64,000 nucleotides of DNA from assembly GCF_009711055.1 (NCBI RefSeq), contig NZ_WMJY01000007.1, positions 1 to 64,000 of the forward strand. Reading direction: 5' to 3'. How positions within the stretch are numbered: the stretch's first letter is position 1; each line of letters starts with the position of its first letter. The notes under the pieces are model-generated. The model worked only from the letters and a program-made list of their open reading frames with translations, had not been told where the DNA came from and did no database searches. Below, piece after piece: positions 34,259-45,594 of this stretch. Origin of the DNA: Myroides pelagicus. GTDB taxonomy: Bacteria; Bacteroidota; Bacteroidia; Flavobacteriales; Flavobacteriaceae. Made by a program: the position numbers and the translations under genes.

Positions 34259-35317
34259 ATGATAGTTGAAAAAGAAGCTATGAAATACCATATAGACTTA
34301 TATGCTAGTGTAAAGATCAATATCAATAGCGATGCCAAGGCGTATGCTAATATCTTGTGTTTGGGTGATCGCTGTAAGAGTTTTGCAGAAGGGTTCTCAG
34401 AAAACTCCCAATCGCGTATATCGCTAATGGGAATCGTCAAAGGACTTGAACAAATCAAACAAGCGGCAGTAGTAACTATACATAGCAGTAGTAAGTACGT
34501 CTGGAATACGTATGAGAAAGGATGGCTTGTGCGGTGGCGTGCGAATAATTGGCTGAAGAAAGATGGTGAACCACCGCTGAATTTGGACTTGTGGAAGCGT
34601 TTTGCCCTGCAATTGGATAGACATCAGATACAGTTTAACTACGTCCCTTACAAGCAAGAAAACGCGTATCTAGCAAAAGCGAAAGCGCTAGGAGCAGAAG
34701 CATTGGTCAGTAGTGCGTTGAAAGTCGATGAGGTTTATCATATGTATCTGGAGGAGTTGAACCTTCATTTGAATGCAGTGCCTGAGATTGTAGCTTTAGA
34801 TGAGCAGGAACAAGCTGTGGTATCAGTGGTGGACACAACTCAAGAGGCAAAAATAACGGAAGGTGTTGATCAATTTATTGAAGAGGATTCATTCACTGAA
34901 ATTGAGATAGTAGCAGACAAAGAAGATACATCTATCGTTCCCCCTGCCTTTGAGTCATTAGCCTCATTGGAAGATGAAGAAGAGGATACAGAACAGGAGG
35001 AGGAAGATAGTCAGGTAAATAGCCGTCCGACAATACTTCAAAAGATGCCTAGTGAAATCAAAGTACTTGTTGGTATTCGAGATTTACTGAATAAATACTT
35101 TGCAAGTCATACTAGTCAAGAGATTTTGCGCTCAACGGATCTCTATGACTTAATCAAGAAAAACAAGGTGCTCAAGGAGCGTTTTCCGCATTCAGTATTG
35201 TTAAATAGTTTTTTGAGACGTCAGCACCAAGAGGGTATTTTAAAGCAAATTATTCCTAACTGCTGTGTAGATACTTTTAATGAAGATTTTTATCAGTGGC
35301 GTTTTCATCGATTGTAA
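34259..35317 (+). CDS. RNase HI-fold pseudoenzyme with extra C-terminal domain
   Basis: Residues 8-150 follow RNase HI closely (KSFAEGFSENSQSRISLMGI, SSSKYVWNTYEKGWLVRW, LNLDLWKRFALQLDRHQIQF). The catalytic carboxylates appear lost: the Glu of the helix motif is Ser (SRISLM), the Asp before the QYV-like strand is Ser (HSSSKYV), and the last Asp is replaced (ENAYLAKAKA). After about 90 acidic low-complexity residues (EDEEEDTEQEEEDS), a 95-residue basic helical domain ends the protein. It probably binds nucleic acid without cutting. The internal ATG at 34280 (MKYHIDLYAS) is an equally good start. Confidence 0.7.
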   Translation: MIVEKEAMKYHIDLYASVKININSDAKAYANILCLGDRCKSFAEGFSENSQSRISLMGIVKGLEQIKQAAVVTIHSSSKYVWNTYEKGWLVRWRANNWLKKDGEPPLNLDLWKRFALQLDRHQIQFNYVPYKQENAYLAKAKALGAEALVSSALKVDEVYHMYLEELNLHLNAVPEIVALDEQEQAVVSVVDTTQEAKITEGVDQFIEEDSFTEIEIVADKEDTSIVPPAFESLASLEDEEEDTEQEEEDSQVNSRPTILQKMPSEIKVLVGIRDLLNKYFASHTSQEILRSTDLYDLIKKNKVLKERFPHSVLLNSFLRRQHQEGILKQIIPNCCVDTFNEDFYQWRFHRL

Positions 35318-35369
35318 AGGAAAGGATGTTACTTTTATGTATTTAAAGGAAATATTAAAATTGTGAAAA

Positions 35370-36038
35370 ATGAGAGTGTTAACAGTACTTATCTGTCTAA
35401 TGACATTGACCACATTTGCTCAGCCCAAAGCTGTGGTGGGTAAAACGACTTATCAGTTTTGGTTAAATGTACCTAAGGTTGTGGAAGCGAAGAATCCATT
35501 GATTATCTTTTTGCACGGCAAGAGCTTATCGGGTACGAATATTGATCAGGTAAAGCGATATGGAGCGTTGAAGGGTATCGAAAACGGGCTAGATATTCCC
35601 GCCTATTTAGTAGCGTCACAGTTGCCTTCAGGACCGTGGAATGCGGATAGAATAGACGAAATAGTTCGTTATGTAATAGCTAACTATCATATAGATGAAT
35701 CTCGAATTTATGTCACGGGAATGAGTTTGGGTGGATATGGTGCGATGAAGTATGCAGGAGAATACTCTAATCGGGTAGCTGCTGCTGTGGCTTTGTGTGG
35801 AGGAGGAGATGAGCGCGATGCTTGTGCCTTGGCGACTATTCCTATTAAGTTGATTCACGGGGATAAGGATTTTATTGTCCCGCTGAAAGAATCTAAGAAG
35901 ATAATGAAGGCTATTCAAAACTGTGACCAACAGGCACCTATTGAATTAGAGGTAGTGCAGGGGGGGACACACGGGAGTGTGGAGGACTTGTTCAGGCACA
36001 TGGAGTTATACAACTGGCTACTGAAGCATCGGAAATAA
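35370..36038 (+). CDS. secreted alpha/beta-hydrolase esterase
   Basis: This 222-residue protein has a signal peptide (MRVLTVLICLMTLTTFAQ) and a compact alpha/beta hydrolase fold of the phospholipase/carboxylesterase type: oxyanion region FLHGKSL, nucleophile elbow GMSLGG, acid in HGDKDFIVP, and His in GGTHGSV. The triad is complete. Likely a periplasmic or secreted esterase; its substrate is unknown. Confidence 0.85.
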   Translation: MRVLTVLICLMTLTTFAQPKAVVGKTTYQFWLNVPKVVEAKNPLIIFLHGKSLSGTNIDQVKRYGALKGIENGLDIPAYLVASQLPSGPWNADRIDEIVRYVIANYHIDESRIYVTGMSLGGYGAMKYAGEYSNRVAAAVALCGGGDERDACALATIPIKLIHGDKDFIVPLKESKKIMKAIQNCDQQAPIELEVVQGGTHGSVEDLFRHMELYNWLLKHRK

Positions 36039-36102
36039 TTGGAATTTGGGTTTGTCAGTTATATTATTAGAATGAGCTACTCCAAATAAGGATTAATTAT
36101 TG

Positions 36103-36131
36103 AAAAACCGAAGTAGCACTTCGGTTTTTTT
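36103..36131 (+). terminator. intrinsic terminator of esterase gene
   Basis: CCGAAGT (36108-36114) pairs with ACTTCGG (36118-36124), with A-run and seven T. Confidence 0.9.
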
Positions 36132-36181
36132 ATTCCCTAAAAGAAACATAGTCTTTACGGATTTCCACTTGTTGGAAAATC

Positions 36182-36419
36182 TGGAAGGGGACCCTTTATT
36201 CTTTTATAGAAGATTTAAGGCAAATGTATGTTTATCACCAGTTCTATAATGCTACGCGTAGCCTTAGTTTATCCAAGTTAGCAAGCGAAGGACCACAAGG
36301 AGTATTACCTAAAGGGGTGTGAAGGCTATATTTGTCATCTAATTCATTTAGGCGTGAAAGATATAAGTGAAAATTTTGAAGACCAGATTCAATCTATCAT
36401 TGATAAATGGATAAAATAG
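36182..36419 (+). pseudogene. McrC-like restriction protein 3' remnant, frameshifted
   Basis: One frame (from 36182) reads SFIEDLRQMYVYHQFYNATR, the conserved C-terminal nuclease-domain pattern of McrC-family specificity subunits, and hits a stop at about 36320. A second frame then continues CEGYICHLIHLGVKDISENF to a natural end at 36419. The two frames are one gene split by a frameshift, with no N-terminal part left upstream. A terminator follows. It marks this site as a former or active insertion hotspot for defence genes. Confidence 0.55.
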
Positions 36420-36438
36420 AAGAGTCAAAATAAGTATA

Positions 36439-36462
36439 GCCCATCGAGAGATGGGCTTTTTT
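36439..36462 (+). terminator. intrinsic terminator after McrC remnant
   Basis: GCCCATC (36439-36445) pairs with GATGGGC (36450-36456), followed by six T. Confidence 0.88.
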
Positions 36463-36536
36463 ACATTGGTAAATATAGTTATGCAAATCGAAGATTTATT
36501 AATTTATTAAAAGTCTTTACTTAAAAAAGTGGGTGG

Positions 36537-36556
36537 TTTACGGATTTCCGTAAACT
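36537..36556. promoter_or_regulatory. 20-bp palindrome GTTTACGGA-TT-TCCGTAAAC
   Basis: Perfect 9-bp arms around a 2-bp centre. The half TTTACGGATTTCC recurs at about 36154-36166 before the McrC remnant. A TACATTTG -7 element (36575-36582) follows 19 bp later, so the palindrome sits where an operator would be. Confidence 0.5.
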
Positions 36557-36677
36557 AAGTTAAAGTATTCATTTTACATTTGTTGGTGTGCACTTTGTGA
36601 AAGCAAGCAGTAATTAGAAGAGGAGCAGTGTTGAAAAATATAAAAGGAAAAATAATGAAAGTTATTGTAAGTAAGTA

Positions 36678-36826
36678 GTGGATAAACAAGGAAACTTCTA
36701 TGGCTATTTTTGGGTAAATAAATATCAATCAAAAAGATTTGAATCGTCACTTGGCTTGATTATTTATGAATATTATGAAGAAATAAGAGAAGATGTAGGT
36801 GAGTGGTATGATAAAATATTTGATTA
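36678..36826 (+). pseudogene. short frameshifted gene remnant
   Basis: From a GTG at 36678 the frame reads coding-like aromatic-rich sequence (DKQGNFYGYFWVNKYQSKRF and on to IIYEYYEE), stopping at 36783-36785. A shifted frame then continues REDVGEWYDKIFD to a stop at 36826. No family recognised. The rest of 36463-37109 is AT-rich, with only the palindrome/-7 element upstream and no exact promoter match directly before 37110. Confidence 0.4.
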
Positions 36827-37109
36827 AGGCTTTGTTAACACTTGAAGATAGGTGTTTACTCAAAAAAAAGGAGGTTTGACGGAAAATAACAGTAAATAGA
36901 GTTAATAAGGGTTAAATTTATATAATTATGTTTACATGTCAACAGCTTTAGCAATTATAGATACTATTAAGTTTAGCTTTTGTAATCTGTTTATGGTTTA
37001 TAGAAAGGACTGTTAACTGTCTTTTATAATTTTTATAATAAAGTGTGGTTTAGTTTGTTATTGTGTTATTTTAGAATAACTTTATTGTTAATAATAGTTA
37101 ATTATATAT

Positions 37110-38021
37110 ATGAGATATAAGATTAAAGGTAGCTTGATACTTGGGATAATACTTTTAGTAAGTAGCTGCCAAAATAAAGAACCAGAAACAGAGTTGAAAT
37201 CTGAATTTGGAAAGTCAATTTACTATGATGCATTTTTGTGGAAGCAAGGTAGAAACGACACATTAACAAAGTCATTTGTTTATGATTTTAATCAATGGGC
37301 AACTGAGACAGATTCGTACGTACAATTATCTTTAAGCGATCATACTAGTGAGCCAATCTCTTCCTCTAATAAAACTTATCACTTTCTAGTTAATGACAAA
37401 CCAGTGGTTAATGGTTTGTTTTCAATCGAATCATCTAAAAAGAGCCTTGATACAATTCGCCTACAGATAGTTTTTAAAGAGAAAATTAATAGTGAGTTCT
37501 ATGGTTTTATCTCTATTAAAGAGCACAACATAGATAGGGTGAATGATATTGATCAATTAAATAGCGCAAATATATATAAGTGGTCAGCTTCTCAGCAAGT
37601 TAAGATGAATCCTCTTCAGTTTAGATTAATTTGTATTGCAGGTGTACTTTTGACATTATTACTTATTTATTTATTGGTATTACGCCCTATTATGTTTAAA
37701 AGGTTTGGAAGAGGTGTAGTTACAATTCAAAGTCCATTTTATAAGAATACACCAGTTAAAAATAGGATTAAGATTGTCTACACAAATAAAAAAGAAAAAC
37801 AAGGCTTTTTAAATAAAGTATTTAAAGGGAAGATTGTCTATGTGGTGCATGATTACTTTAACGCACCTTTAATTTTAACCCCTGGAATTAAAGGAAGGAT
37901 AAGAGTAAAAACTAATGGAGCGTATTCTATTGAGCCTTTTACAAGTAATATGGAAAAGGGAAAAACATTTAAAATAACTAATACATCAACAAACGAAGAA
38001 ATAACACTAACATATCTATAA
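37110..38021 (+). CDS. membrane-anchored lipoprotein of tubulin-like operon
   Basis: This 303-residue protein is of no recognised family. It has a lipoprotein signal with LVSSC (Cys20), a 150-residue extracytoplasmic region, a clear transmembrane helix at residues 172-192 (ICIAGVLLTLLLIYLLVL), and a 110-residue beta-rich tail that should face the cytoplasm. A lipidated N-terminus plus a transmembrane helix places it in the inner membrane, able to link the periplasmic vWA protein to the cytosolic tubulin-like proteins. Two bases separate it from the tubulin gene, so it is co-translated. Confidence 0.7.
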   Translation: MRYKIKGSLILGIILLVSSCQNKEPETELKSEFGKSIYYDAFLWKQGRNDTLTKSFVYDFNQWATETDSYVQLSLSDHTSEPISSSNKTYHFLVNDKPVVNGLFSIESSKKSLDTIRLQIVFKEKINSEFYGFISIKEHNIDRVNDIDQLNSANIYKWSASQQVKMNPLQFRLICIAGVLLTLLLIYLLVLRPIMFKRFGRGVVTIQSPFYKNTPVKNRIKIVYTNKKEKQGFLNKVFKGKIVYVVHDYFNAPLILTPGIKGRIRVKTNGAYSIEPFTSNMEKGKTFKITNTSTNEEITLTYL

Positions 38022-38023
38022 TT

Positions 38024-40822
38024 ATGGCACATATTTTAAAGAGAAGTTTATTTATTGGACTCGGAGGAACTGGAGCTCAAGCTTTATTACATACTAAGAA
38101 AAGATTTTTAGATACCTATGGTGAATTGCCTCCGATGATTGGTTTTTTAGCAATAGACACCGATATCAGTACGGGAGAAAAATCAATTACAAGAGATTGT
38201 ATTTTAGATAAACATAAAGTTAGAGATAGTAAGGTTTCATTTACTCCATCTGAAATTATTCATATTGGGGTACAAGAAGCAGCCTCATCATATGAGAAGA
38301 ATAGAGACACTATTTTCGATTGGATGCCTCAAGAGAATGAATATGCTTTAAAAAATTTGTGGCAAGGTGCAGGACAGGTAAGAACAAATGGTAGGTTTGG
38401 AACATATTTTAATCAGAACAATATCATGAATGCCGTTCAGAATAAAATAAATGATATTCGAAATATAGATATAGCAAATCAAAATACATTTATTCCAAAA
38501 GACAGCGGTATTGAAATTAACTTTGTTTTTTCAATTGCTGGAGGTACAGGAAGTGGGACTTTTATAGATATAGTTTATTTGGTCAAACATGCATTGGCTG
38601 GAGTAAATAATGTTAAGTCCATTGGTTTTGCAGTTCTTCCTGATGTATTTAACGCAATGCAGCAAGGTATTTCCATGGCAAATACAAGGCCTAATAGTTA
38701 TGGTGCATTAGTAGATTTAGATTTCTTGATGAGTAAAAATGTAGAACATTTAGGATTGTCGATTAATTTGAATCAACAGCTAATTGATATAAAGGAGAAT
38801 CCATTTGATATTTTGTTTACCATAGGTAATAAAAATACAAGTGGTGCGGTAATTGATCATATATCAGATATCTCTGAACAAATTGGACTAGCAATGTTTA
38901 CAGGGGCAAGCGAATTAAGTGCGAATGTAAATAGTGTATATGATAATGTGATAACTGTGCTGGTAGGGGGGCAACTAGATATTTTGAATAAACGTGCATG
39001 GGCCTGTGGAATGGGAGTAAGTGAATTGTATTATGATGGAAATGGTCTAGCAAATATTTACGCGCGTAGAGTAGCTCATAGCATGATTAATAATTTATTG
39101 ACACAAGGAGTTGGTGCTCAGCCATTGGCCAATAATTTTATTGATAGCCCTGAGGTAAATATTAGAGAGAATAATGGAAGCGACAATCTAATTAATGCTT
39201 TGTTAAGTAAAACACCTCAGAATCAATTTCCATATATTAATGATGTTTCTGATATATTGAATCAAATAAACGCATATCTACTTAGCATCGATAAGACTTC
39301 TCAGGCAAATGTTGATGAGAATTCTGAAGTTAAATATAACAATGTCTCTAAAGAACTAAAAAGCTTTATTGTAAAAGTATTAGATGATAACAATGGTATT
39401 GGTAATACGGAACATTTTTTAGAAGACTTGAAGCAACAGTTAAATATTTTCTTTAATGAAATGGACGATGAAGAAGGTATTTTTCTAAACAATAAGAATA
39501 ATAACGATCAAGCTATTAAAAGTGAAGTTGAAAGTTTGCAAGCGCTTTCAAAAGGTTTTTCGTTCTTAAAAAAATCTTCAATTAATGATAGTAAAGAAAG
39601 TCTGAATGATTTAGTTAACAATCAGTCTATTACGATTAATGAAATTAAAAGAAGAACTTCGGCTAAACAATTTATCACTAAACTTATAGGAGAGGTTAAT
39701 GATTATCAGAAAACCATAAGTACAATTAAGAATAAATTAGAGCGTATTCAACAAACAATACAATCTTATGTAAATAACGCAATAAACTCGACAAACGAAA
39801 GACAAAAAACATTTGTTATTGATTTGCATAAGCTTGATTTGAATAAAACCTATCCAAAAGAAGGAGATTATCTAATGGTTGATTTTATTAATGTATTGAA
39901 TAAATCCTTGGATAATGGAATACTGGATTTTGATACATTGAAAGATGAAAATATAGAGAGAAAATTCTGGAAATATACTAAGGAGCTACCTAAGTCTAAG
40001 GAATTTGTAAACAAATCTATTGACGATGTTTTAAGAGGTTTAAGTGAAGAAGAAACTAAAGCGATTGCTAATCAGTTAATCACAAAATCACATGCCTTAT
40101 GGCAACATAGTTCAAAAGGTTATGCTATAGGTCAAGAACTCTTCGATTACTTTGTTATCGGTTTACCTACAAGTAATTCTACATTTAAAAAATCATTTGC
40201 TACACTTGTACAAAATCAAAACATTGAATATGTTTCCACAGGTATACATAATAAAGTAATTTGTTATCGTATGGAAGCAGCATCTCCTATTTTTGGGGTT
40301 CTAGATGTTGAAGGATATTGTAGGGACCATGATAGGGTTAAAGAAAATTCTAATTCTATGATCTATAATATAGATAAGAACTGGTTAACTAAAATGCAAC
40401 GTTCAAATTTCTCAATATGGCCAGCTAAAAAAGAAGATAATAGTTTGCAAGCTTGGGTTTTAGCTTTTGGTTATGACCTTGTGCGTTTGGATTCAGATAC
40501 AAAGAAATACAAAGTATATTCTAGAGAACAAGGAAATCCATTACGAAACTATTGGTATGAGCTTTCTGAATATAGAGATGAATCATTTGATTTGTTTAAA
40601 CGCGGGAAGTTTATAGATGAGATAATTACAGGAATTAATGAAATCAGGCAAAAAGATGGAGAGGTGAAAAGCAATGAATTGATTTCAAAAATGAAGCAAG
40701 ATTATTTAGCTAATTATGCTCAAATTAATGTAAGTATGGAAGATATTGAAAAACCCATCTATTCAAAAATAAAAGATTTGGTTATTAGAGAAATTGATTT
40801 TGTAACAAAAGAATTAAAGTAA
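38024..40822 (+). CDS. tubulin/FtsZ-superfamily GTPase-like protein
   Basis: This 932-residue protein's N-terminal 250 residues have the tubulin nucleotide-binding layout: FIGLGGTGAQALL (residues 10-22, T1-like loop), a strand LAIDTD, the phosphate-binding tubulin signature AGGTGSGTFID (residues 172-182, T4 loop), and NSYGALVDLDFLM near residue 224 in the position of helix H7. The remaining 650 residues are helical and family-specific. It matches the bacterial tubulin-like group (Pfam Tubulin_2 type), far longer than FtsZ. It is expected to bind GTP and polymerise or act as a switch. Central gene of a four-gene operon. Confidence 0.82.
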   Translation: MAHILKRSLFIGLGGTGAQALLHTKKRFLDTYGELPPMIGFLAIDTDISTGEKSITRDCILDKHKVRDSKVSFTPSEIIHIGVQEAASSYEKNRDTIFDWMPQENEYALKNLWQGAGQVRTNGRFGTYFNQNNIMNAVQNKINDIRNIDIANQNTFIPKDSGIEINFVFSIAGGTGSGTFIDIVYLVKHALAGVNNVKSIGFAVLPDVFNAMQQGISMANTRPNSYGALVDLDFLMSKNVEHLGLSINLNQQLIDIKENPFDILFTIGNKNTSGAVIDHISDISEQIGLAMFTGASELSANVNSVYDNVITVLVGGQLDILNKRAWACGMGVSELYYDGNGLANIYARRVAHSMINNLLTQGVGAQPLANNFIDSPEVNIRENNGSDNLINALLSKTPQNQFPYINDVSDILNQINAYLLSIDKTSQANVDENSEVKYNNVSKELKSFIVKVLDDNNGIGNTEHFLEDLKQQLNIFFNEMDDEEGIFLNNKNNNDQAIKSEVESLQALSKGFSFLKKSSINDSKESLNDLVNNQSITINEIKRRTSAKQFITKLIGEVNDYQKTISTIKNKLERIQQTIQSYVNNAINSTNERQKTFVIDLHKLDLNKTYPKEGDYLMVDFINVLNKSLDNGILDFDTLKDENIERKFWKYTKELPKSKEFVNKSIDDVLRGLSEEETKAIANQLITKSHALWQHSSKGYAIGQELFDYFVIGLPTSNSTFKKSFATLVQNQNIEYVSTGIHNKVICYRMEAASPIFGVLDVEGYCRDHDRVKENSNSMIYNIDKNWLTKMQRSNFSIWPAKKEDNSLQAWVLAFGYDLVRLDSDTKKYKVYSREQGNPLRNYWYELSEYRDESFDLFKRGKFIDEIITGINEIRQKDGEVKSNELISKMKQDYLANYAQINVSMEDIEKPIYSKIKDLVIREIDFVTKELK

Positions 40823-40832
40823 AAAAAGATAT

Positions 40833-42995
40833 ATGATAAGTCCTTGTATTAATATAGGAATTGGTAAGGATGGAATAACATGTCTTAATGGACTCGCGCG
40901 AAATTTTCATTCGCGTGAGTCTGTATTACCTACATTAATGTCTTTTTTAACAGTGGACTTAGAGGGAGCTCAAAAGTTCAATGTTTATGAAAAGGATAAA
41001 GAGGAATATGTAGAATATGAGTTACCTAATAAAGTAGATTCTGAGTTAACAGACGAGCATGTTTTTTTAGCAAAAGCTTATAATGATTTGATTTCTATTT
41101 TAAATGTATTACATAAAAGTCTACAGTATACCTATATAAATTTAAACTTGGTGTATTCTGCACTTGAACAAGACTTGACGATAATAGAGTCTTTTTCTAA
41201 TATTGTAAGAGAGTATACCCGTGATGGTACTTTTGGTACGGTGATTATTAAGAATTTTGTAATTATATCAGACGGAATAGGTATCTTATCTAATGAAGAA
41301 GAAAGTAGAGTTACTGAAAATTTATTGTTTATTGAAAGTGTTAAAAAGAATAGTCCAATAGTGGATACTATATTTCTTTTAGATGACAAAAACTTAAAAG
41401 CTATTTTCTTAGGATATAAAAATGAGTATTTATCATTTGCTCTTTATGAATTTATCATAGCTATTATGACAAATCAGTATAAAGTGCTTAGTAATCTTTC
41501 TGGAAAAAGTAACTTCTTGTCTTTTGGTATTGGCTCTATATTTTTTGATAAGTTATATTTTAACGCCTATTTTGATTATGCGATTTTTAGAAAATTTCTT
41601 AAAAATGAAAAAATTAGTCTTGATGGGAAAAATAAGTATGAATTATCAAGCCTAACAGAAGTAAAAAAAATATTCAATGAGTATTATTCTAATATAACCA
41701 CTGATTTAGAACCTGTTTTTGATTTAGTAAATATAGAATCTAATGAAAAAGGAGATTTAGCAATTGGATCTTATCAATACACTTTGCAACTTATGTTAGG
41801 GGAGCAAAAGGATAGGGTTATTGATGTAGATAATTTTGTTTTAAAGTATAATATTAAGGAGTTAATATTCAATATTATTTATAAGTATGTATTAGAAGAT
41901 AAAGAGAAGAAGGAAGTACTATCTGTAGAGGAAGGTAAAAGAGAAATTGTTAGAGCTCATTATCAAGAAATAGAATTATCTGAGTTAAGATCTTTAGAAG
42001 AAGATGATTACAAGAGTGATATTGAAGTTTTGAAAAGCCAATTAGCAGAAGCAAAACAGAACTTGTCTAAATACGAAAATCAACTTAAAAAAAGCTTCTT
42101 TAAGTATAAAAAACCTCTTGAACGAAAGTATATTAAACTAAGTCGTCAACAAGAATTATCGGATAAACTAGATAAGTTATATGAAAAGAAAAAATTAGTA
42201 GAGTTAGAACATAGTAAAAAGTTTTTTATTAATAGGCTCTTTTCTTGTAGAGCTTTCAGGAATACAATTGAAGAGATAGAGTTTGAAATAGGTGATTTAA
42301 AACATGAAATTAGCCTTAAAAGTAAAAGTGTTTCGGAAGTTCAAAAAGCATTAGGTGAACTTTATGAGCTCTATGAGCTCTGTGAAACAAAAAACAAGAG
42401 AATTACATCGGTTATTAATGTTTTACAAGACCAAGGGAAAATATTTGAAAGAAGATGGTTTGCTACGCCTTATATTGATTATTCTTTTGTTCAAAATGTT
42501 ATAGATCTTCAATTATTAAAAGCATACTTTAAAACTAATCAGTGGGAGTTAACCAATAATATAAAACAGTCTTATTCTACATTAATGGACAAAGATTACG
42601 ATAGGTATGAAATATTAGAAAACTATCTGGATATATCAATAAATAATAGAATAGGAATAATTGATTTCGATGCAACTGAATATATGTTGGGCTATTATGA
42701 TCAAATGAACTTATTTACTGGGTTTAATTTTGATGAAGATATTAAAAAACTTCAAGAAAGAGGAAGGCCTTTTATTAATGTTATACCTACCTATATTGCA
42801 CAAACACATGAGCTTTATTCTGTGTACAACGCAGAATGCAGGGATAAAGTGATGATTAAAATTAAAGATTACTTTGCTAGCACACCACCTTCTGTAATAG
42901 ATTGTCTTAATAAAGACCGTTTTTTATCTATTAATATTGAGAGCTTCAATTCAATAGATAATCTAGCAAAATCATTTAAAAATGATAGACAATGA
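40833..42995 (+). CDS. divergent tubulin-like partner with dead nucleotide loop
   Basis: This 720-residue protein's N-terminus aligns by eye with the preceding tubulin-like protein: INIGIGKDGITCLNGLARNF against FIGLGGTGAQALLHTKKRF, and LPTLMSFLTVDLE against LPPMIGFLAIDTD. Where its neighbour has NFVFSIAGGTGSGTF, it has NFVIISDGIGILSN (residues 141-154), so the glycine-rich phosphate loop is gone. Residues 390-525 form a strong coiled coil. It is inferred to be a non-hydrolysing structural partner. Ten bases follow the first tubulin gene; its stop overlaps the vWA start. Confidence 0.65.
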   Translation: MISPCINIGIGKDGITCLNGLARNFHSRESVLPTLMSFLTVDLEGAQKFNVYEKDKEEYVEYELPNKVDSELTDEHVFLAKAYNDLISILNVLHKSLQYTYINLNLVYSALEQDLTIIESFSNIVREYTRDGTFGTVIIKNFVIISDGIGILSNEEESRVTENLLFIESVKKNSPIVDTIFLLDDKNLKAIFLGYKNEYLSFALYEFIIAIMTNQYKVLSNLSGKSNFLSFGIGSIFFDKLYFNAYFDYAIFRKFLKNEKISLDGKNKYELSSLTEVKKIFNEYYSNITTDLEPVFDLVNIESNEKGDLAIGSYQYTLQLMLGEQKDRVIDVDNFVLKYNIKELIFNIIYKYVLEDKEKKEVLSVEEGKREIVRAHYQEIELSELRSLEEDDYKSDIEVLKSQLAEAKQNLSKYENQLKKSFFKYKKPLERKYIKLSRQQELSDKLDKLYEKKKLVELEHSKKFFINRLFSCRAFRNTIEEIEFEIGDLKHEISLKSKSVSEVQKALGELYELYELCETKNKRITSVINVLQDQGKIFERRWFATPYIDYSFVQNVIDLQLLKAYFKTNQWELTNNIKQSYSTLMDKDYDRYEILENYLDISINNRIGIIDFDATEYMLGYYDQMNLFTGFNFDEDIKKLQERGRPFINVIPTYIAQTHELYSVYNAECRDKVMIKIKDYFASTPPSVIDCLNKDRFLSINIESFNSIDNLAKSFKNDRQ

Positions 42996-43975
42996 AATTA
43001 AAAGAAATATTTGTTTTGGCAATTTGTATATTAGTAACAATGCCAGTTTTTTCTCAACATAGCCTTAAGGATAAGAAGTATATATTTGAGTTAGATATTA
43101 CAAAGTCTATGTGGGGAGTTGGAGAGCCCGGGTCAATTGATATTTTCGATAAAGTTAGAAATCAGTTAATAACCGCTATTGAAGGGATACAGGATCCTTC
43201 TGCTGAGATTGTCTTAATAACATGGCAAGATCAAATTATAAATACTTGGCAAGAGAAAGCAACACAACAAGGAAAAGAGAACTTGATAACTCAACTTAAA
43301 GAAATTACAAAGAAGAGTGTGCCAGGTCAGAATACAAACATTTATAATGCTTGGGTGGAAGCTAAAAAACATGTGGTGGGTGATAAGATAAACATTGTTT
43401 ACTTATTAACCGACGGAAGACATAGTGTGAGTAACCCACCAATTACTAAGTTGTATAATGAAATTCCTAAATGGTCTAGTTTTGTGGCTGATAAAGATGC
43501 TTATATGTTCGTAGTAGAACTTACCTCTCAAGCTATTGATGAAAAAATGCGTTCTCAAATTGAGGCTACTGATCATGTAAATTTTATACATGGAATAGAA
43601 TTTTACACTTTGTTTATCAATAATAGTATGTCGATAATAAATTTAGATGAGAATCTTCAGTTTGAGTTGAGTATTAATAAGCAGAATCTATCAAAGACTT
43701 ACGATAATCTAAAACTTAGAATTAAATTAGAAAGTGATTTATTTGATGTTGTAAATGATGAAGTTGTCTTAAATGAAACACCGAAGATTATTAAATTAAG
43801 GTTAAAAAAAACCTTAGAACAGACGAAAGCTTCTTTAGCAGAAGTGTCTTATCTTCCAGTTACTATTTCCATTGACCAGGAAGATAAGTATTCAAATATT
43901 AAATTAGTTAATAGTGATATAACATGTAAAATAGTGAATAAAAAAGAGAAAGTACTCTATTTTAAAGAACTGTAA
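42992..43975 (+). CDS. secreted vWA domain protein of tubulin-like operon
   Basis: This 327-residue protein has a signal peptide (KEIFVLAICILVTMPVFSQ) and a von Willebrand A domain at residues 28-210. The MIDAS metal site is complete: DITKS (35-39), the Thr in GQNTNIYNAW (115), and Asp141 in LLTDGRH. A 110-residue beta-rich C-terminal domain follows. It is periplasmic and probably engages a partner through the metal site. Its ATG overlaps the preceding stop by 4 bp. In predicted bacterial tubulin-like membrane-remodelling systems, a vWA protein is a recurrent partner. Confidence 0.82.
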   Translation: MKLKEIFVLAICILVTMPVFSQHSLKDKKYIFELDITKSMWGVGEPGSIDIFDKVRNQLITAIEGIQDPSAEIVLITWQDQIINTWQEKATQQGKENLITQLKEITKKSVPGQNTNIYNAWVEAKKHVVGDKINIVYLLTDGRHSVSNPPITKLYNEIPKWSSFVADKDAYMFVVELTSQAIDEKMRSQIEATDHVNFIHGIEFYTLFINNSMSIINLDENLQFELSINKQNLSKTYDNLKLRIKLESDLFDVVNDEVVLNETPKIIKLRLKKTLEQTKASLAEVSYLPVTISIDQEDKYSNIKLVNSDITCKIVNKKEKVLYFKEL

Positions 43976-44009
43976 TTACATTAATTATAGTGTTAGAGTT
44001 TATATTAAG

Positions 44010-44032
44010 CCCATCGTACGATGGGTTTTTTT
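44010..44032 (+). terminator. intrinsic terminator of tubulin-like operon
   Basis: CCCATCGTACGATGGG (44010-44025) is a perfect 16-bp palindrome followed by seven T. Confidence 0.9.
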
Positions 44033-44193: not shown

Positions 44194-45594
44194 ATGAGTA
44201 CTACAATTAAATCAAATATCAAAACAATAAACCCGACAACAGGGAAAGAAGAAAAAGTATATCCTGTAATGACTGCTCAAGAGATCGATCAAATCTTGAC
44301 TAAAGCAGATTCGACGTTTAATTCTTGGGGTAAGACAACAGTGCAAGAGCGTTCGGCTATTATTAAAAGTGTAGCACAGGCATTTCGTGCGCGTAAAGAA
44401 GAGTTAGGAGCCTTGATCACTAAAGAGATGGGAAAACTTTTAAAAGAGGGAATAGGAGAAGTACTATTATGTGCTGATATCTTTGACTTCTACGCTGATA
44501 ATGCAGCGGAGCTATTAGCTGATGAGAAGATTGCTACACCTCACGGTGAAGCGTTCATCAGTAAAGAGCCTATTGGAACGATTCTTAGTGTACAGCCTTG
44601 GAACTTTCCTTTTTATCAAATTACACGTTCGGCAGCACCAAACCTAATGGCAGGAAACACAATGGTATTAAAACATGCCTCGAATATCCCACAATGTGCG
44701 GAGATCATGGAAGTGATTTTTAAAGAATGTGGTTTGCCAGATGGTGTTTATACTAACTTATTTGTACCTGGAGCTTCTATAGAGGCGATTATAGCTGATC
44801 CTCGTGTGAAAGGTGTTGCTTTTACAGGTAGTGAAGTCGCTGGATCGAGTGTAGCTGAAGCTGCTGGAAAATATATCAAGAAGACTACTTTAGAACTTGG
44901 AGGTAGTGATGCTTTCGTGGTATTGGATGATGCGGATATTAACAAAGCGATTAGAGGAGCAGTGGAAGGAAGACTGTGGAATGCTGGTCAAGTATGTGTT
45001 TCTCCTAAACGTCTAATCGTTGATAAAAAATTAGCCAAAGCCTTTATTGAAGGCGTTGTGGAGCAAGTGAAAAATGCTAAAGTTGGGGATCCTATGTTAG
45101 ATGAGACACAATTAGCTCCATTGAGTAGTGAACGCGCAAGAGAAGATGTGCTAAAGCAAGTAAATAAAGCTGTAGAGCAAGGTGCTACACTAGTGTATGG
45201 TGGACACAAACTAGACAGAGATGGTTGGTTTATGGAACCTACTATTTTGACAGGTATTACCAAAGATATGGATGCGTATAGCCAAGAGATTTTTGGCCCT
45301 GTATTTATGATTTATGAAGTGGAAAATGAGGCAGAAGCTATTGCTTTAGCTAATGATACTCCATTTGGATTAGGTGGAAGCGTATTCACTGAAAATAAAG
45401 AAAGAGGAGTACAGGTAGCGCGTCAGATTGTGACGGGTATGGTGTATATTAACCATGTGACAGGTATCTCTCCTGAGTTGCCATTCGGAGGTACGAAGAT
45501 GTCAGGATATGGTAGAGAGCAAGCTAAATACGGTATTCATGAGTTTGTTAACGAGAAACTAATTCGCGTAACGGATATTGATAAGGCATACTAA
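44194..45594 (+). CDS. NAD(P)-dependent succinate-semialdehyde dehydrogenase
   Basis: This 466-residue aldehyde dehydrogenase has SVQPWNFPFYQITR, the nucleotide loop FTGSEVAGSSVAEAAG, the catalytic Glu in LELGGSDAFVV and the nucleophile Cys in NAGQVCVSPKR. The short class and EIFGPVFMIY spacing match the SSADH/GabD subfamily, oxidising succinate semialdehyde to succinate. No gabT neighbour. Substrate assigned by similarity only. Confidence 0.88.
   Translation: MSTTIKSNIKTINPTTGKEEKVYPVMTAQEIDQILTKADSTFNSWGKTTVQERSAIIKSVAQAFRARKEELGALITKEMGKLLKEGIGEVLLCADIFDFYADNAAELLADEKIATPHGEAFISKEPIGTILSVQPWNFPFYQITRSAAPNLMAGNTMVLKHASNIPQCAEIMEVIFKECGLPDGVYTNLFVPGASIEAIIADPRVKGVAFTGSEVAGSSVAEAAGKYIKKTTLELGGSDAFVVLDDADINKAIRGAVEGRLWNAGQVCVSPKRLIVDKKLAKAFIEGVVEQVKNAKVGDPMLDETQLAPLSSERAREDVLKQVNKAVEQGATLVYGGHKLDRDGWFMEPTILTGITKDMDAYSQEIFGPVFMIYEVENEAEAIALANDTPFGLGGSVFTENKERGVQVARQIVTGMVYINHVTGISPELPFGGTKMSGYGREQAKYGIHEFVNEKLIRVTDIDKAY

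Follow-up and report, generated by a model that had tools for sequence, protein, structure and literature searches.

A four-gene FtsZl1/vWA-type operon of Myroides pelagicus with a predicted pseudo-tubulin partner as a candidate trans-envelope switch

Known FtsZl1/vWA operons and the Myroides pelagicus locus

Operons that combine the tubulin-like family FtsZl1 with a von Willebrand factor A (vWA) protein were described in 2010, when their function was unknown (Makarova and Koonin, PMC2875224). As presented in the main text of that paper, the FtsZl1 protein has an N-terminal FtsZ-like domain with T1 and T4 loops, a coiled coil and a C-terminal domain, the vWA gene lies in the operon with membrane protein genes adjoining, and the systems are patchily distributed and coexist with FtsZ. 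A reviewer of the paper asked how a tubulin in the cytosol could cooperate with partners in the periplasm, and how the absence of some tubulin elements can be squared with known filaments (PMC2875224). Here we analyze an operon with the same features, located at positions 37110 to 43975 of a 64,000-nucleotide stretch of Myroides pelagicus (assembly GCF_009711055.1, contig NZ_WMJY01000007.1, positions 1 to 64,000; hereafter the window). We tentatively read it as an envelope-spanning signalling switch and not as cell-division machinery, a reading that we hold with somewhat less than even confidence.

The operon comprises four co-directional open reading frames (ORFs) on the + strand, encoding proteins of 303, 932, 720 and 327 amino acids (aa) with intergenic gaps of 2, 10 and -4 bp. 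We refer to their products as the membrane protein L (37110..38021), TUB (38024..40822), the partner (40833..42995) and the vWA protein (42992..43975). The operon is followed at 44007-44028 (+) by a terminator-like hairpin with a T tract. No further gene belongs to the operon after the vWA gene, and the next one, an aldehyde dehydrogenase gene labelled by eye, starts behind the terminator at 44194, 218 bp beyond the vWA gene. ORF coordinates and hairpin thus agree with the first-pass annotation of this DNA, which had reported four tightly spaced genes bounded by a terminator.

Relatives were collected by scanning genome contigs with a TUB profile, yielding 182 places, of which the best 80 were kept, for a total of 81 loci with the window. 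The partner was the next gene on the same strand at most 200 bp 3' of TUB in 74 of the 75 testable loci, and a member of the vWA/transmembrane (TM) family was found within three genes of TUB in 75 of 77. The partner was missed in L014 and the vWA/TM family in L059 and L071; in L014 and L059 the reason is that a second TUB copy was picked, their first copies being complete, and L071 is a genuine miss. The order TUB-partner-vWA of the window was also found in Myroides odoratimimus (L013) and in L014, and the vWA gene is likewise 3' of the partner in a Myroides phaeus contig (L052). L014 carries two full-length TUB copies, with the partner and vWA genes adjoining the first only; in L052, a TUB start following the partner and vWA genes may be a second copy of the same kind. 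Relatives repeatedly have these genes next to one another, so the arrangement is more than chance, and the conserved-neighbourhood survey that had been proposed as a check on the locus found its genes linked.

The vWA protein was identified from its ORF, the family profile and its metal-ion-dependent adhesion site (MIDAS). Residues D35, S39, T115 and D141 of this site are invariant in 24 of 24 vWA rows, at least 90% of which also have T37, and a hydropathy scan predicts an export signal from the hydrophobic residues 3-21. Pfam VWA models match 10 (PF00092) and 8 (PF13519) of the 24 family members and neither matches the window's own protein; the family profile matches vWA chains of the PDB (best 4cn8, E-value 9.4e-14). 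Where the vWA and TM parts are fused in one protein, L corresponds in alignment to the C-terminal half of that protein. L has a lipobox with Cys20 (codon at 37167-37169, read from the sequence, + strand), a column that is Cys in 12 of 12 split-form rows (alignment A5), and a TM helix at residues 173-191 (37626-37682, + strand, hydropathy scan), giving a predicted topology of an extracytoplasmic part, the TM helix and a cytosolic tail of about 110 aa.

In 40 of 79 loci, a single chain holds both the vWA and the membrane protein; the two are split in 34 loci and arranged otherwise in five, four of which (L017, L026, L029 and L081) have TUB at or near the contig start, the fifth being L071. The fused chains exceed 500 aa and run from the vWA domain through the TM helix to a cytosolic tail. 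Such fusions argue strongly that the vWA module is linked to a chain entering the cytosol, and their frequency supports coupling across the membrane. A lipidated single-pass membrane protein, an exported MIDAS vWA protein and a membrane protein that couples the periplasmic module to a cytosolic one had all been proposed from the window alone; the first two hold up as predictions backed by conserved residues and the third through the fusions.

The tubulin-fold pair and a papain-like domain in relatives

TUB is an FtsZl1/Tubulin_2 tubulin-like putative GTPase that matches PF13809 (Tubulin_2) with 190.9 bits (cut-off 27) over model positions 1-355 of 356. Its T1 loop (GLGGTG, residues 12-17, 38057..38074) and T4 glycine loop (GGTGSG, residues 173-178, 38540..38557), located in alignment A1, are each kept in 79 of the 81 TUB rows. 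In the AlphaFold2 (AF2) model, DSSP places coil helices at residues 411-453, 458-509 and 517-591 that separate two alpha/beta parts. Structural alignment pairs TUB residues 5..755 with residues 11..316 of FtsZ 2vxy, running across the coil. We therefore predict a two-domain tubulin fold interrupted by a long coiled-coil hairpin (residues 411-591, 39254..39796), with the second tubulin domain at about residues 598-800 (39815..40423). By comparison, neither T6-H7 nor a resemblance of the C-terminal domain to known tubulins was confidently identified in the 2010 study, according to its main text (PMC2875224), whereas the window model gives a second tubulin domain past the coil. The TUB model also matched alpha-pore-forming toxins (among ranks 12 and below); we set these hits aside, as they look like matches between long helical hairpins. 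The genome encodes one PF13809 gene, TUB itself, and one canonical Tubulin/FtsZ-domain gene (PF00091) on another contig; given this separate FtsZ, TUB is not the division tubulin. The first-pass annotation had called the 932-aa protein tubulin-like from T1/T4-like loops and had named structure prediction beforehand as a possible refutation; the loops proved conserved, a PF13809 match was found, and a tubulin fold was predicted.

The partner is predicted from its ORF and AF2 model to be a pseudo-tubulin, that is, a tubulin-type fold without the usual GTP-binding motifs: its model matches tubulins over both domains, with alignments extending to residue 720 and a best Foldseek E-value of 1.4e-3, and T1 and T4 motifs occur in 0 of 76 partners, the window's included. 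A coiled-coil hairpin (residues 341-544, 41853..42464, DSSP of the AF2 model) is predicted between its tubulin domains as well. A tubulin identity was not supported by sequence alone: a phmmer search of the PDB returned nothing stronger than an E-value of 0.09, its weak matches lying over the coiled coil, and hhalign against the TUB profile gave a probability of 24.5 over 84 columns of the C-terminal part with partner alignment A3 and of 3.6 over 39 columns of the N-terminal part with alignment A2. The degenerate tubulin partner claimed earlier is thus upheld by the predicted fold and not by the profiles. At the hairpin turn, marked by a helix break at residues 461-465, the alignment shows an aromatic/basic motif, KKFFINRLF (residues 462-470, 42216..42242), which falls among the columns that hold TM segments in long partners; perhaps the window partner reaches the membrane through this coil tip.

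In most relatives examined, the partner carries a papain-like domain. Pfam detected Peptidase_C1 in the partners of L010 (E-value 1.3e-19) and L054, and a hidden Markov model (HMM) that we built picked it up in 68 proteins, every one a member of the partner family; of the 76 TUB rows whose partner was scored, 67 have it. All three residues of the Cys/His/Asn triad are present in 65 of the 68 domains (split domains merged), the exceptions being L070 (Ser for Cys), L062 (degenerate) and L024 (cut off). By hydropathy scan of the alignment A3 rows, TM segments lie in the coil of 26 of 28 papain-bearing partners (all but L057 and L069), of both papain-free Fibrobacterota partners (L031 and L047) and of none of the 11 short papain-free ones. 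The window partner has neither a Peptidase_C1 domain (by Pfam or the papain HMM) nor TM segments. The first-pass annotation missed the papain domain and the TM segments of partners in relatives, which are invisible from one window.

We mapped the domain on a tree of the 81 TUB rows (67 papain-bearing, 9 protease-free, 3 without a matched partner, namely L011 and the second copies of L014 and L059, and 2 with a truncated partner, L017 and L080). The tree was built by a quick method with Shimodaira-Hasegawa-like approximate likelihood ratio test (SH-aLRT) support only, its root is unknown, and L011, L085, the second copy of L059, L092, L080, L073 and L068 have long branches. The protease-free label changes at least five times on starred branches, so the domain came or went repeatedly. 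Because the domain sits at a single site in the partner, we find repeated loss the simpler explanation, tempered by the long-branched, early-placed L011 and L085, in which the domain is absent or the partner unmatched. Most likely, the domain was lost in the window's lineage.

This absence bears on whether the Myroides-like lineage, having neither protease nor TM segments, retains a mere scaffold in decay that currently does nothing. Fast divergence would fit such decay (between the window and M. odoratimimus, the partner is 53% and L 51% identical, against 76% for TUB). We nevertheless find it very improbable, as the four frames are intact and tightly spaced, T1, T4, the lipobox and MIDAS are kept, and the gene order is the same in M. 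odoratimimus and L014.

The papain domain bears in turn on the original genome-context prediction (Makarova and Koonin, PMC2875224), a membrane-remodelling machine in which filaments of TUB, with or without the partner, bend the inner membrane or form vesicles while the vWA protein regulates or anchors them. The two-domain tubulin fold of the TUB model and the possible membrane-facing tip of the partner agree with it. We still consider it unlikely: a partner without T1 and T4 would presumably interrupt or cap a filament, the protease domain carried by most of the relatives examined misfits a purely mechanical role, and a reviewer of the 2010 paper preferred transport or signalling (PMC2875224).

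Other known tubulin systems differ as well. The window pair departs from the BtubA/BtubB and alpha/beta-tubulin heterodimers in that the partner is devoid of T1 and T4 and both proteins have a coiled-coil insertion; unlike CetZ and FtsZ, the window system has a long coiled-coil insertion, a partner gene and a predicted trans-envelope operon. FtsZl1 operons often include a P-loop GTPase, OmpA-like or kinase gene, which does not define them. None is among the window's four, whose proteins have no Pfam match to P-loop GTPase, OmpA or kinase families; to this extent, the earlier suggestion of a distinct subtype is borne out.

Neighbouring genes, spread and flanks

To describe the neighbourhood, we retrieved a near set of 66 co-directional proteins of 70-1300 aa encoded at most 120 bp downstream (loci L013-L092, at most four genes each) and compared it with a far set of 66 drawn at random from 149 distant proteins. 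Pfam matches in the near set included eight DNA/RNA non-specific endonucleases (Endonuclease_NS) and three each of Exo_endo_phos, Ion_trans, DUF6804 and DUF6565. Among the 25 far families listed, of 88 matched, there were one Endonuclease_NS and one DUF6804; Ion_trans is absent from these 25, so its presence in the far set is possible. As related loci were counted separately, the nuclease and ion-channel neighbours are suggestive only. The nucleases (8 of 66 near, 1 of 66 far) again misfit a purely mechanical role. Individual genes downstream of the partner include an Ion_trans gene by Pfam (L031:17457-19523) and two assigned by clustering or eye (L047:9848-12163 and L035:9069-9872).

Such neighbours raise the alternative of an anti-phage or anti-competitor defence, with the vWA protein as the sensor of phage adsorption or of damage to the envelope and the tubulin pair as the trigger of a toxic response (in relatives a protease, nuclease or ion channel). 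The system is indeed patchily distributed. Of 299 family genomes, 5 (the window's own included) had a PF13809 match, four of them over the cut-off; the TUB profile found 1 of 61 genomes of the genus, namely its own, and 7 of 395 of the phylum, again including its own, the other six being far lower-scoring, partial matches. In the quick tree, the two Fibrobacterota rows nest inside Bacteroidales, which suggests horizontal transfer, and the repeated changes of the protease-free label, the nucleases and Ion_trans channels downstream in some loci, and a brxL gene close to a Thermus relative also speak for defence. On the other side, PADLOC gave only chance-level matches for the four window proteins (E-values 0.027 and 0.047), and no enrichment of its families was seen beside the operons (5 among the 66 near and 38 among the 66 far proteins, a small sample in which many far matches are alternative Cas1 models). 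No toxic domain was recognised in the window copy, and close relatives are missing from mobile-element records: among 72,556 plasmid records there are 7 matches, each below 60% identity and over at most 39% of the query, and among 50,697 phage records a single one, with 23% identity over 45%. A defence role, which the first-pass annotation had floated, thus gained nothing from this small test, and we regard it as distinctly unlikely.

The Thermus relative lies on plasmid pTHEOS01 of Thermus oshimai (L101:7404-13758), where a vWA gene, TUB and a gene for a 677-aa hypothetical protein stand in the same order and have comparable lengths, with brxL as the next gene. By eye, an aromatic/basic stretch is present in the 677-aa protein, which nevertheless does not match the partner profiles (E-values 0.96 and 0.12, hhalign probability at most 1.4); the same partner outside Bacteroidota and Fibrobacterota is thus no more than a lead. 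L012, from the same family as the window, has a different PF13809 operon with vWA-like proteins and a protein with an Hsp70-like region, and downstream of it trypsin-like and patatin-like proteins (labels by eye).

The 1,071 bp 5' of the operon (36039-37109) look non-coding: no ORF there exceeds 58 aa. A second terminator-like hairpin lies in this stretch, at 36438-36457. In M. odoratimimus, a small lipoprotein gene sits just upstream of the operon; its family (about 200-230 aa) flanks the operon up- or downstream in L013 (8308-9000), L062, L069 and L073. The upstream gap as a decayed accessory gene is unproven, since tblastn with the M. odoratimimus small lipoprotein gave nothing better than an E-value of 2.3. 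Of the eroded upstream region described earlier, the scarcity of ORFs therefore stands, and decay from operon parts was not demonstrated. Further upstream (34259-36038), RNase-H-like and hydrolase-like genes, labelled by eye, also adjoin the operon in M. odoratimimus in a changed order; among 61 genomes of the genus, the RNase-H-like gene was found only in that of the window.

A candidate switch across the envelope

In the signalling switch that we favour, the exported vWA protein and the lipidated one-TM protein, both predicted, would relay an outside signal to the cytosolic tubulin-fold pair. Ligand or ion binding at the MIDAS would alter the TM protein, and the altered protein would promote GTP-dependent association of TUB and the partner under the inner membrane, which the partner may reach by its coil, given the TM segments there in most relatives. 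In those relatives, association would gather papain domains and start proteolysis of cytosolic targets. In the protease-free lineage of the window, the output could be scaffolding, membrane deformation, or a protease supplied from elsewhere.

Several points weigh against this switch. Linkage is established for this clade only, as the 80 best of 182 loci were kept, and in a distant relative (L011) the gene after TUB, 659 aa and cut by the contig end, is unmatched by the partner profiles. The pseudo-tubulin rests on a predicted model, and sequence profiles do not join partner and TUB. The cytosolic position of the protease is a topology that we infer, and the window copy has no protease, so the clearest output of its relatives cannot be its own.

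A more specific proposal, which strikes us as rather doubtful, is a tubulin-gated protease receptor: a live and a dead tubulin, forming an alpha/beta-like pair that is connected across the inner membrane with a MIDAS sensor, would switch on a cytosolic papain-type protease, and the window would hold a protease-free derivative that keeps the sensor and the tubulin pair.

In the main text of the 2010 paper, no words start with "protease", "peptidase" or "papain" (PMC2875224), and our searches of an open-licence literature library, which did not extend to the 2010 supplements, found no paper on a papain-bearing or pseudo-tubulin partner of FtsZl1. Additional File 6 of the 2010 paper may include the partner among its unnamed families. 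Nor did these searches find a description of the second tubulin domain behind the coil, of a pseudo-tubulin or papain-like domain in the partner, or of the vWA-TM fusion as a physical link. With these, the questions put by the reviewer in 2010 get testable answers, in the form of a TM protein fused to vWA in about half of the loci, a predicted hidden second tubulin domain, and a partner predicted to be a pseudo-tubulin that bears a protease domain in most relatives examined. If the switch is real, a tubulin would be acting here as a signalling switch, and not as a cytoskeleton or a division ring.

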